From positions 1-53,930 of the forward strand of contig CADCVY010000065.1 of NCBI GenBank assembly GCA_902806275.1: DNA of 53,930 nucleotides. The letters run 5' to 3'. The notes beneath the pieces are model-generated. The model ran no database searches. It was not told the DNA's origin and saw only the letters and a program-made list of their open reading frames with translations. The translations under genes were made by a program, and so were the position numbers. This stretch comes from an uncultured Sphingomonas sp. (lineage in GTDB: Bacteria > Pseudomonadota > Alphaproteobacteria > Sphingomonadales > Sphingomonadaceae). Every line of letters begins with the position of its first letter. Position 1 is the stretch's first letter. Shown piece by piece: positions 12,624 to 17,083 of this stretch.

Positions 12624-13460
12624 TCAGCCCCTTTGCAATGGTACTGCTGAGAGTGCGCGTGAGCCGAACGGAACCACCCGATTCCCGACATCATGGCCGA
12701 TGTCGGCGCGGCCGCCGTAGACGATGCCGGAACGGTGGCACCAGTCCTCGACGATCGCGCATTCGTCGCGCGCGAACGCGGGGTCGTTCGCGGGGATGTC
12801 GCCAACCCGTCCGAGGCGAAGCCGGGCAATTCGGCGAACGTTGGGGCTGGCCGTGACGTGGAACATCATGCGGTCGATGCGGTAGTGGTGCTCGCCGATA
12901 TCTTCGATCAGCAGGTCGACGCCGGCGAGATCCGGCTCCAGCGCCGTGCCGAGCAATGACGCTAGCACGGTCAGGTTGAACGCCATCGCGGGCTCCTGCA
13001 GGTCCGGCTCGCAAGCGGCAGTGTCCCGGTCGACCAGCCACGCCAGCGCCCGCTCGACCGCCGCATCGCCGCCGTCGCGCATGACATCCTGCGGCATCGG
13101 CCCCCACACCGCCTGCACCCCAACCTTGTGCAGCCCCGCTTGGAGGAACCCGGCGTCGCTATAACCCAGATAGACCTTGATCCGCGCCGCGAGGGGCAAG
13201 TCGCGCAGCGCCGCTTCGGCGATGCGGTTCGAACCATAACCCCCGCGCGCGAACCAGACGGCATCCACTGCAGGGTCGGCCATAACTTCGCGGAGCGCAT
13301 GCAACCGCGCTTCGTCCGGCCCGGCGAAATGCCCGTCCGAAAGGAAGCATTGGGGGTGAATCAGGAGTTCGCAATCGCCCCGGCGATTCGCGATCGCCTG
13401 CACCCGCTCGGCCGCTTCCCGCTTCAACGAACAGCTTGGAGCGACCACCGCGATGCGCAT
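12624..13460 (-). CDS. LD-carboxypeptidase (S66 family)
   Basis: MRIAVVAPSC; VWFARGGYGSNRI; YLGYSDAGFLQAGL; LIEDIGEHHYRIDRMMFH. Confidence 0.88.
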   Translation of the reverse strand: MRIAVVAPSCSLKREAAERVQAIANRRGDCELLIHPQCFLSDGHFAGPDEARLHALREVMADPAVDAVWFARGGYGSNRIAEAALRDLPLAARIKVYLGYSDAGFLQAGLHKVGVQAVWGPMPQDVMRDGGDAAVERALAWLVDRDTAACEPDLQEPAMAFNLTVLASLLGTALEPDLAGVDLLIEDIGEHHYRIDRMMFHVTASPNVRRIARLRLGRVGDIPANDPAFARDECAIVEDWCHRSGIVYGGRADIGHDVGNRVVPFGSRALSAVPLQRG

Positions 13461-13949: not shown

Positions 13950-15347
13950 ATGATCGACACTCCGGTTTTCTTCAGCGGCATCGGGGGCAGCGGGATGCTG
14001 CCGCTGGCAAGTATCGTCCGCGCCGGCGGCGCGCGGGTCGCCGGGTCCGACCGCTCGCTCGACGCCGGTCGGACGCCGCACAAGTTCGAATACCTGCGCT
14101 CGCTCGGCATCCAACTGTTCGCCCAGGACGGGTCGGGCCTGCACCCGGGCATGACTCTGGTCACCTCGGCAGCAGTCGAAGCCGATGTGCCCGACGTCGT
14201 TCGCGCTCGCGACCTAGGCCTTGCGCACCTGACACGCCCGCAGTTCCTCGCCCGCTTGCTCAACGAAGCGGGGCGCAGCGTGGCGGTCGGCGGAACCAGC
14301 GGCAAGTCGACGGTTACCGGCATGATCGGCTGGATCCTGCACGCCTGCCATCGTCAGCCGACGGTGATGAACGGCGCGGTGATGAAGAACTTCGTCACGC
14401 CCTCGGCGCCATTCGCCAGTGCCCTCGTCGGGGACCCCGAACTGTTCGTCAGCGAGGTCGACGAAAGCGACGGCTCGATTGCGCTCTACCGGCCGGAAAT
14501 CGCGGTGCTGACCAACATCAGCCTTGACCACAAGGAAATGGCGGAGCTGCGCCAGCTGTTCGCCGGCTTTCTCAACGCAGCGCGCAAGGCGGTGCTCAAC
14601 CTCGACGACCCGGAGACGCGGATCCTCGCCGACGCGGTCCCAGCCGACAAGGTGATCGGCTACGGCTTCGATAGCCCTGGGGCCGATCTCATGGGCAAGA
14701 ACCTGCAGCTGGAGACTGACGGCGTCACGTTCGCGCTTGAAGCCGAGGGCGAGCGCCACGAGGTGAGGCTTGGCGTTCCCGGCCGTCACAATGCGTCCAA
14801 CGCGCTGGCGGCGCTCGCCGCCGCCCAGGCGCTCGGGGTACGGCTGGAGGACGCAGTCAATGCCATTGCCCGGTTCGAAGGGCTGAAGCGGCGGCTGGAA
14901 ACCGTCGGCTCGGCGCGCGGTGTCACGGTGATCGATGACTTCGCGCACAATCCGGACAAGATCGAGGCCACGTTGGCCACGCTGCGCGCGCACGAAGGGC
15001 GCCTGCTGATCATGTTTCAGCCGCACGGCTACGGGCCGCTGAGCAAGATGGGCGAGCCACTGGCGGACAGGCTTGCAGGCGGCATGGCGCCCGACGACCG
15101 GCTGTACCTTCCCGATCCCGTGTACCAGGGCGGCACGGTGGACCGGGCGCGTGGCAGCGACTGGTTGGCGGCGCAGGTGGTCACGCGGGAACGGCACGCC
15201 GAGCACATCCCCGAACGCGCGCAGATCGGCGAAGCCCTGGCGCGGGAGGCGCGCGAGGGCGACCGCATCCTCATCATGGGCGCGCGCGACGACACCCTGA
15301 TCGACTTCGCACGCGAACTGGTGGAGCGGATCGCCGGCCGGAACTGA
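13950..15347 (+). CDS. Mur ligase family protein (MurC/Mpl-like)
   Basis: FFSGIGGSGMLPLA; GGTSGKSTVTGMIGW; EVDESDGSIALYRPEIAVLTNISLDHKEM; GRHNASNALAALAAA; IDDFAHNPDKIEATL. Confidence 0.9.
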   Translation: MIDTPVFFSGIGGSGMLPLASIVRAGGARVAGSDRSLDAGRTPHKFEYLRSLGIQLFAQDGSGLHPGMTLVTSAAVEADVPDVVRARDLGLAHLTRPQFLARLLNEAGRSVAVGGTSGKSTVTGMIGWILHACHRQPTVMNGAVMKNFVTPSAPFASALVGDPELFVSEVDESDGSIALYRPEIAVLTNISLDHKEMAELRQLFAGFLNAARKAVLNLDDPETRILADAVPADKVIGYGFDSPGADLMGKNLQLETDGVTFALEAEGERHEVRLGVPGRHNASNALAALAAAQALGVRLEDAVNAIARFEGLKRRLETVGSARGVTVIDDFAHNPDKIEATLATLRAHEGRLLIMFQPHGYGPLSKMGEPLADRLAGGMAPDDRLYLPDPVYQGGTVDRARGSDWLAAQVVTRERHAEHIPERAQIGEALAREAREGDRILIMGARDDTLIDFARELVERIAGRN

Positions 15348-15372: not shown

Positions 15373-15750
15373 ATGGCGAGACGTGGCACCGTCACCGGGT
15401 GGAAAGTGCGCGCGGACGAGCGCGCGACGCTGCTCGGCCGCTTTCCGCCGAAATACGGCCAGGTCGTCGCCGATCACGTGACCCTGCGCGTCGGCGCCAC
15501 GGCTGCGACACCCCTGCCCCGCGCTGCTCCGGCACGCATCGTCGGCCGCGCCGACGACGGACGCAGCCTTGAATGCCTGGTGGTCGAGATCGATGGCACG
15601 ACCGACCGCTTGGACGGATCCACTTACCACATCACCTGGTCGCTCGGCCCCGGACGTAAAGCACGCGAGAGCAACGATGTCCTGCGCGACCATGGCTGGC
15701 AGCACATCGACGCGCCGATCGACATCGACCTGGAGCCCGCGCGTTTCTGA
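15373..15750 (+). CDS. Hypothetical protein with two HxT motifs (2H-phosphoesterase-like)
   Basis: QVVADHVTLRVGA and STYHITWSLGPGRKARESND; 125 aa. Confidence 0.6.
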   Translation: MARRGTVTGWKVRADERATLLGRFPPKYGQVVADHVTLRVGATAATPLPRAAPARIVGRADDGRSLECLVVEIDGTTDRLDGSTYHITWSLGPGRKARESNDVLRDHGWQHIDAPIDIDLEPARF

Positions 15751-16244
15751 TGGGCGCCGCCGAGCCGCGCCTGTTCCTCGATGCCGACGGTGTGCTGGCC
15801 GACTTCGACGAAGGCGCGCGCCGCCTGTTCGGCATGGACGCGGCGCGGTTCGAGGCAAAGCACGGCCGGCGCGAATTCTGGAAGCGGCTTGCGGCGGCCA
15901 AGAACTTTTACGGCAGCTTGCCGGAAATGTCCGACGCGCGCCTGCTGTTCGACCCGGTAGAGCATCTCAAGCCGACGATCCTGACCGGATTGCCGCTGGG
16001 CAGTTGGGCGGCGCCGCAGAAGGTGAAATGGGCGGCCGAGCACTTTCCAGGGGTACCGATCGTCACCTGCATGGCGCGCGATAAGCACAAACACATGAGG
16101 CCGGGCGACGTTCTGGTCGACGATCGCGAAAACCACCGTGCGGCATATGAGGCGGCGGGCGTAGTGTTCGTGCATCACCGCAGTGCAGTGGACAGCCTCA
16201 GGCAGCTGGCCGAGCTGTTTCCGTCGGTGAGCGTGAGCACCTGA
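15750..16244 (+). CDS. HAD family phosphatase (5'(3')-deoxyribonucleotidase/NT5C-like)
   Basis: LFLDADGVLADFDEGA (motif I), ILTGLPLGSWAAPQKVKWA, DVLVDDRENH; start overlaps the previous stop (TGATG). Confidence 0.85.
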   Translation: MGAAEPRLFLDADGVLADFDEGARRLFGMDAARFEAKHGRREFWKRLAAAKNFYGSLPEMSDARLLFDPVEHLKPTILTGLPLGSWAAPQKVKWAAEHFPGVPIVTCMARDKHKHMRPGDVLVDDRENHRAAYEAAGVVFVHHRSAVDSLRQLAELFPSVSVST

Positions 16245-16337: not shown

Positions 16338-16889
16338 CTAGGCAGCCGCCTTGAGATCGACCTTTTCGACCCACTCGGGCCAGAACACCGGCTCGCGGCT
16401 CGACCAGCCCGGCGCCGTTGCGGCGCTTTCGCTGATCGATTGCAGCAGGATTCGGCGTCGGTCCGGGTGAAGGTGCGGCAGAGCGGCGGCGGCGCAGAAG
16501 GCCGCAGGCAGCCACGGCCGCGCCGAAGCACCGATCAGGCGCTCGTATAGGAAACGGAAGGCGGCAAAGTTCGGCAGGCGGTCCTGACCAAGGTCGAAGG
16601 CCGCAAGCGTGATCAGCATGCCGAGGAACGGATCGATCATGTCGAGCCCGCTGTCGTCCGGCACTTGCAGCCGCAGATGGTCGAGCTGCTTGTACAGCCG
16701 GGCCTGGCCACGGATCGACGCCGCTTCCCCCTCGTCGCGCGACCAGCACTCGATCGGGTCGCGACGACCGTACGCCACGTCGAGCGACCGGCGGATGTAC
16801 CGCTGCGTCGCCTTCGAAAAGCTGGCGAACTCCTTCATTTCGGAAATCAGCATCGCCCCGCTTGCCGGCTGGCTGGTCCGCGTAATCAT
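16338..16889 (-). CDS. Hypothetical protein
   Basis: MITRTSQPASGAMLISEMKEFASFSKATQRYIRRSLDVAYGRRDPIECWSRDEGEAASIRGQ...; coherent ORF, no family recognised; start chosen at the internal ATG. Confidence 0.65.
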   Translation of the reverse strand: MITRTSQPASGAMLISEMKEFASFSKATQRYIRRSLDVAYGRRDPIECWSRDEGEAASIRGQARLYKQLDHLRLQVPDDSGLDMIDPFLGMLITLAAFDLGQDRLPNFAAFRFLYERLIGASARPWLPAAFCAAAALPHLHPDRRRILLQSISESAATAPGWSSREPVFWPEWVEKVDLKAAA

Positions 16890-17083
16890 GAACCCGACTC
16901 CTTTTGCCTCGGAGGGATCATGCGGCTGATTTGGTTTCGAGATACTTAACCACAGTCCCAACCCCCGTTCAGATAGAATCAGAGCGGAGTCCTCGCGGCA
17001 AGGACAGATGTTGACCGGCGACGGGAAAACTGTGGATTGTTGATTTGTTGCAACGCCGAGGCGTTTTGGTGACGTGGGGGGAA

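Follow-up and report, generated by a model that had tools for sequence, protein, structure and literature searches.

The window analysed here, a stretch of 53,930 nucleotides from an uncultured Sphingomonas sp. (contig CADCVY010000065.1), carries two short adjacent genes on the forward strand. The first encodes a 125-aa protein with two HxT motifs, referred to here as the 2H protein, and the second encodes a 164-aa HAD protein with LFLDADGVLADF near its N terminus (coordinates are given in table 1). The original prediction had the stop codon of the 125-aa ORF overlapping the ATG of the HAD gene, and this is what the DNA holds: the junction reads TGATG, and base 15750 is common to the stop of the 2H gene and the start of the HAD gene. 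This 1-nt overlap is consistent with translational coupling of the two genes. The end of a Mur-ligase-type gene lies 25 bases upstream of the 2H gene, and because this gap is so short the Mur-ligase, 2H and HAD genes may be co-transcribed. By eye, no obvious signal peptide is present in either protein of the pair.

Table 1. Features of the 2H–HAD gene pair in the window, with the evidence for each.
Feature	Position	Strand	Evidence
125-aa protein, divergent compact 2H-fold, tRNA-ligase-CPD-like, predicted 2',3'-cyclic phosphodiesterase	15373..15750	+	ORF, AlphaFold, Foldseek
First HxT motif, H35-V36-T37, within VADHVTLRVG	15475..15483	+	homologue alignment; strand 35-40 of model
Second HxT motif, H86-I87-T88, within TYHITWSLGPG, followed by S90	15628..15636	+	alignment; strand 86-91 of model
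TGATG stop/start overlap	15748..15752	+	sequence
164-aa HAD phosphatase, NT5C / 5'(3')-deoxyribonucleotidase type	15750..16244	+	PF06941, AlphaFold, Foldseek, profile match
HAD motif I, FLDADGVLADF, predicted catalytic Asp11 and Asp13	15774..15806	+	57/57 homologues
HAD motif IV, Asp124-Asp125	16119..16124	+	57/57 homologues; aligns with DD of mitochondrial deoxyribonucleotidase

The immediate surroundings of the pair contain several further genes. Just upstream of the 2H gene is a divergent pair, consisting of an S66 LD-carboxypeptidase (12624-13460, minus strand) and the Mur-ligase-family protein (13950-15347, plus strand). The latter scores 280 bits against murC, where the cut-off is 335, and likewise does not reach the cut-off for mpl; since both scores fall short, it may be a recycling paralogue. 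Downstream, a 207-aa protein on the minus strand (16338-16961) matches no family above cut-off, and it occupies the place of a gene cluster found repeatedly in Sphingomonas loci, on the opposite strand and downstream of the pair.

The two HxT motifs that had been pointed out in the 125-aa ORF are present, and the conservation of both His/Thr pairs was checked in homologues. Among 87 distinct 2H homologues, drawn from genomes of the genus and from genome_contigs, H35, T37 and H86 are each found in all 87 and T88 in 86. S90 is equally invariant (87/87), as are R79, G82 and N101, further positions near the motifs. An alignment of bacterial and phage proteins (n = 25) that includes divergent phage sequences also retains both HxT pairs without exception, together with the Arg before the second HxT, the Ser two residues past it and the Ser of the SN. 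Since the invariant residues cluster round both HxT motifs, the conservation pattern of the 125-aa protein is, as judged from these alignments, that of a putative active site.

Comparison of predicted structures places the 125-aa protein more precisely. Its AlphaFold2 model has a pLDDT of 91.6, with each HxT on a strand, and the best Foldseek match among solved structures is 6u05 (probability 1.00, TM-score 0.58, with E only 4.4e-3). The entry is described as a fungal RNA kinase, which we take to be one of the fungal tRNA-ligase kinase-CPD structures; the remaining 49 of the 50 PDB matches listed have a probability of 0.21 or less. Among viral predictions the leading match is a Marseillevirus RNA ligase (E 1.6e-5), and other leading matches are giant-virus proteins, Acb1, torovirus polyprotein segments and a 2'-5' RNA ligase superfamily protein, with rotavirus proteins also found; several of these are 2H proteins. 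For the predicted model, then, 2H-type matches head both fold searches. These results agree with the 2H phosphoesterase identity first proposed, in so far as fold can predict activity, and 6u05 as the top PDB match upholds the suggested likeness to the cyclic-phosphodiesterase (CPD) domain of eukaryotic tRNA ligases.

Sequence profiles give a fainter picture. PF08302 (tRNA_lig_CPD) matches the Atu_ph07 homologue across the second HxT at E 0.004, with 17.1 bits against a cut-off of 23, and at E up to 1 it is found in three of 15 2H-family sequences; the Pfam scan gave no PF08302 match in the 125-aa protein of the window. No family was found for this protein in Pfam and NCBIfam scans, and sequence-only searches of solved structures returned only chance matches (ribosomal-protein, urease and similar). 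It does match PHROG 36523 (phrog_36523), as do its phage relatives, but this entry has no function attached. Membership of the LigT/ThpR group was considered and dropped when hhalign comparison with canonical LigT/ThpR-type 2H proteins of the same genus gave a probability below 1%. PF22547 (2H-SAK) reaches a sub-threshold E of 0.16 in one 2H-family member; a search with it across the window's own genome gave no match anywhere, but as the controls were likewise silent this result is uninformative. We conclude that the 125-aa protein represents a divergent and compact family with a predicted 2H fold, lying outside both LigT/ThpR and the curated PF08302. PADLOC defence families yielded no match to it either, and with zero matches an anti-phage defence role for the pair was put aside.

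The partner is easier to classify. PF06941 (NT5C) matches the HAD protein of the window with 34.3 bits against a cut-off of 24.8 (E 2.8e-8), and matches 56 of 57 HAD homologues at E<=0.01. Its AlphaFold model (pLDDT 95.7) has the human 5'(3')-deoxyribonucleotidases cdN/mdN as top Foldseek matches, and a profile search with the HAD family retrieves the human mitochondrial and cytosolic 5'(3')-deoxyribonucleotidases, with 4mum at 3.8e-8; no polynucleotide phosphatase is found among the top 50 Foldseek matches. D11, D13, T79, K112, D124 and D125 are invariant among HAD homologues, and the motif I residues D11, D13, G14, V15, L16 and A17 are present in 57 of 57. Stops reported inside some HAD matches are probably end effects. 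In the model, helices between motif I and motif II form an alpha-helical, NT5C-like cap, which would suit small nucleotide substrates better than long RNA. By family, catalytic residues, fold and helical cap, the HAD protein is of the NT5C type, with a predicted nucleotidase activity. Of the NT5C/polynucleotide-phosphatase-like character originally ascribed to it, the NT5C part therefore stands, alpha-helical cap included, and the protein is not a PNKP-type phosphatase.

Conservation of the neighbourhood was examined in the genus of the window, in a wider set of loci and in phages. The genus is represented by 61 genomes, of which 47 have the 2H gene and 54 the HAD gene. The HAD gene lies directly downstream of the 2H gene on the same strand in all 47 genomes that have the latter; none of the 61 has a 2H gene without a HAD gene, and seven have a HAD gene without a 2H gene. 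The pairing thus holds wherever a genome of the genus has the 2H gene, and it recurs beyond the genus, including in phages. The sole exception to close spacing, in one genome (G450, C1:1710802-1711643), has both genes in fragments, as if through joint decay or sequencing errors.

At 63 genome_contigs loci of the 2H gene, some of which also belong to the genus set, a HAD gene is downstream in 31, convergent in two (Roseomonas) and not found nearby in 30. Of 20 genomes whose located 2H locus has no adjacent HAD gene, 14 carry one elsewhere, and in two of these 14 it belongs to a second, linked 2H–HAD pair. The class background is 9/387 genomes (about 2%) for the HAD profile and 5/387 for the 2H profile; the ratio of 14/20 to 9/387 is indicative only, given that the HAD profile was trained on linked HADs and that the genomes are taxonomically clumped. 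Across the order, 46 of 301 genomes have the 2H gene, and these represent 12 of 78 genera. The mirror-tree correlation between the 2H and HAD proteins (r 0.65, 60 pairs) is supportive, but it is uncorrected for the species tree and we give it no main part in the argument. Because about half of the genome_contigs loci have no adjacent HAD gene and seven genomes of the genus have the HAD gene alone, each gene may also serve on its own.

Phages carry both genes in several arrangements. The 2H gene is present in three jumbo phages, in two of which a related HAD gene lies at a distance in the genome. In IMG/VR it is carried by 23 contigs, some of them copies of one another, and a HAD gene adjoins it in nine, the order being 2H-HAD in five and HAD-2H in four. 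The five contigs with the order 2H-HAD (L117, L118, L119, L121 and L122) share the arrangement NrdA-NrdB-glutaredoxin-2H-HAD, with genes that overlap or lie close together (ATGA overlaps in L117), preceded by a dCMP deaminase in those contigs that reach far enough. In four of these five an Rnl-type RNA ligase (PF09414, E 1.1e-12) is encoded divergently ~4-5 kb away. In another phage contig (four near-identical records) the gene right after the 2H gene encodes a CCA-type nucleotidyltransferase (PF01743), and in one contig the 2H gene is adjoined, as judged by eye, by NAD-salvage genes. Phages commonly carry NT5C-like HADs (237 records), so adjacency in phages is weaker as specific evidence. PF18143 (HAD_SAK_2) is found in a phage HAD at 14.6 bits, with a cut-off of 27.5. 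Gene order, strand and kind of host all change around the pair, and the 2H–HAD association has therefore been kept through these changes.

Taken together, we consider that the pair is probably a module that works in the cytosol and clears 2',3'-cyclic phosphates in two steps, an activity predicted from fold, residues and gene linkage. Hydrolysis of a 2',3'-cyclic phosphate by the 2H protein, with both of its His-Thr pairs taking part, would yield a 2'-phosphate (or a 3'-phosphate). The HAD protein would then strip off this phosphate by way of an aspartyl-phosphate intermediate, so that a free 2',3'-diol is left. For the bacterial genus, the likeliest substrates would be 2',3'-cyclic mononucleotides or else short oligonucleotides produced when RNA decays, which are favoured because dedicated RNA ligases are mostly absent from the genus. 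The pair would there be a cytosolic, two-protein counterpart of CpdB, which is periplasmic. Phages could use the same chemistry to ready tRNA or other RNA ends for a ligase or for CCA repair, or to supply nucleotide salvage.

Whether RNA ends are the true substrate depends in part on which ligases accompany the pair. RtcB is present in only four of the 61 genomes of the genus. Matches to PF09414 there occur only in LigD-sized frames, mostly of 820-870 aa, and for that reason were not counted as dedicated RNA ligases. Of the 61 genomes, 60 separately encode canonical 2H proteins (PF13563). In the chromosomal loci examined, neither a kinase nor a ligase was seen next to the pair, which extends the earlier remark that no ligase lies next door. 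By gene content, most genomes of the genus give no sign of a classical heal-and-seal pathway. RNA 3'-end healing, with 2',3'-cyclic-phosphate ends converted to 3'-OH ends for an RNA ligase or a CCA-adding enzyme, is accordingly an alternative that we think rather unlikely, for all that it has in its favour. The CPD domain performs such healing within fungal and plant tRNA ligases, the nearest folds of the 125-aa protein are a fungal tRNA-ligase structure and giant-virus RNA ligases, and phage contigs have PF09414 near the pair in four cases and a PF01743 enzyme after the 2H gene elsewhere. Sequential clearing of cyclic RNA ends by 2H and HAD activities has moreover already been proposed for jumbo phages (PMC7824862), and the clean-up of these ends by 2H proteins has been discussed for viruses as a whole (PMC9503650). 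The scarcity of RtcB, the restriction of PF09414 to LigD-sized frames and the chromosomal loci free of an adjacent kinase or ligase count against it, as does a HAD protein with an NT5C-type cap whose structural matches are nucleotidases and not polynucleotide phosphatases. With the genus mostly devoid of dedicated RNA ligases, clean-up of nucleotides is thus at least as likely as healing of RNA ends. The original prediction had offered RNA-end healing or cyclic-nucleotide breakdown; the two-step, cyclic-phosphate reading common to both is supported, with the balance between them as just given. Each of the three findings named beforehand as refuting it (a predicted structure lacking the 2H fold, a His/Thr pair that varies among homologues, no conserved neighbourhood) was looked for, and none turned up.

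Two further alternatives concern smaller substrates. The HAD protein could be a plain dNMP nucleotidase and the 2H protein could clear an odd cyclic or damaged nucleotide made near ribonucleotide reductase (RNR), a form of deoxynucleotide or modified-nucleotide housekeeping that would suit both the dNMP substrates of the NT5C family and the position of the pair after NrdA-NrdB-glutaredoxin in five phage contigs. We regard it as improbable: none of the bacterial loci examined showed RNR next to the pair, and the linkages that 2H enzymes attack, 2',3' or 2',5' on ribose, cannot exist in deoxynucleotides. More improbable still, to the point of being a long shot, is that the substrate is ADP-ribose 1'',2''-cyclic phosphate or some other cyclic signal, whether derived from NAD or immune in nature, from which the HAD protein takes the exposed phosphate. 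The NAD-salvage genes by the 2H gene and the anti-CBASS protein Acb1 among the viral fold matches point this way, but the NAD context is confined to one phage contig, no defence family is matched, and a gene kept stably on the chromosomes of a bacterial genus does not look like counter-defence.

The proposed clearance of 2',3'-cyclic phosphates can be compared with several known systems. The 125-aa protein resembles the CPD of the fungal tRNA ligase Trl1 (PF08302; 6u05) in its two HxT motifs, its best solved fold match and the weak profile match of phage homologues. It differs in being half the size (the PF08302 model has 250 positions) and under the Pfam cut-off, and in standing alone with no fused kinase or ligase. 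With LigT/ThpR-type 2H proteins (PF13563) it shares two HxT motifs but no detectable profile similarity. The HAD protein is like human cdN/mdN (NT5C) in family, catalytic residues, fold and helical cap, but is shorter and is paired with a 2H gene. The best-known bacterial 2',3'-cyclic nucleotide hydrolase is the periplasmic CpdB, a single secreted protein whose fold is unrelated to the pair. According to works cited in PMC9686202, CpdB is a 2',3'-cyclic phosphodiesterase/3'-nucleotidase and carries out the two consecutive steps that are predicted for the pair. The pair differs from it in consisting of two small proteins with no evident signal peptide. Swiss-Army-Knife RNA repair (2H-SAK PF22547, HAD_SAK_2 PF18143) and the end-clearing proposed for jumbo phages (PMC7824862) both combine a 2H and a HAD activity in phosphate removal at RNA ends. 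From both the pair differs in having another HAD family and separate genes, and from the former also in giving sub-threshold matches only.

The 2H family itself appears to be new, as do the fold nearest to it, the NT5C protein as its partner and the conserved pairing of the two in bacteria and phages, and an earlier mention is possible. The uncharacterised family (phrog_36523 in phages) would thereby join the 2H fold, and the solved structure closest to it belongs to eukaryotic tRNA repair. In both E. coli and Salmonella, gene expression changes under the influence of 2',3'-cyclic nucleotides (PMC8765455, PMC9686202), which also bind ribosomes and inhibit translation (PMC9686202). We tentatively suggest, as a broader reading that we hold with less than even confidence, that an undescribed compact 2H family of alphaproteobacteria and phages, nearest to the tRNA-ligase CPD, and its NT5C partner make up a cytosolic pathway devoted to destroying 2',3'-cyclic nucleotides (or to healing cyclic RNA ends), and that a bacterial signal recognised only recently is controlled in this way; the family may reflect the bacterial or viral stock of the eukaryotic CPD. 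A conserved cytosolic pair would make intracellular clearance of 2',3'-cyclic nucleotides directly testable.

The gene context of the 2H gene differs among lineages and includes RNR, NAD salvage and LigD/ImuA, a diversity that counts against the two-step module. Two 2H homologues lie on Sphingobium and Sphingomonas plasmids (L104 4001-4357, L107 4001-4317), with ligD (and, in one, an annotated xth) and a cupin-annotated gene upstream; they adjoin genes for an SOS-associated peptidase and ImuA/DUF6504, and sit in a DNA-repair island. In Phenylobacterium and a relative (L053, L054, L061, L071, L081 and L083) there is no HAD gene directly after the 2H gene, which is followed instead by a small protein and then by a ~535-aa peptide-binding ABC-transporter-like protein. 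Where a HAD gene is found in these genomes it lies elsewhere and, in some, as judged by eye, beside a Fur/Zur-like regulator.
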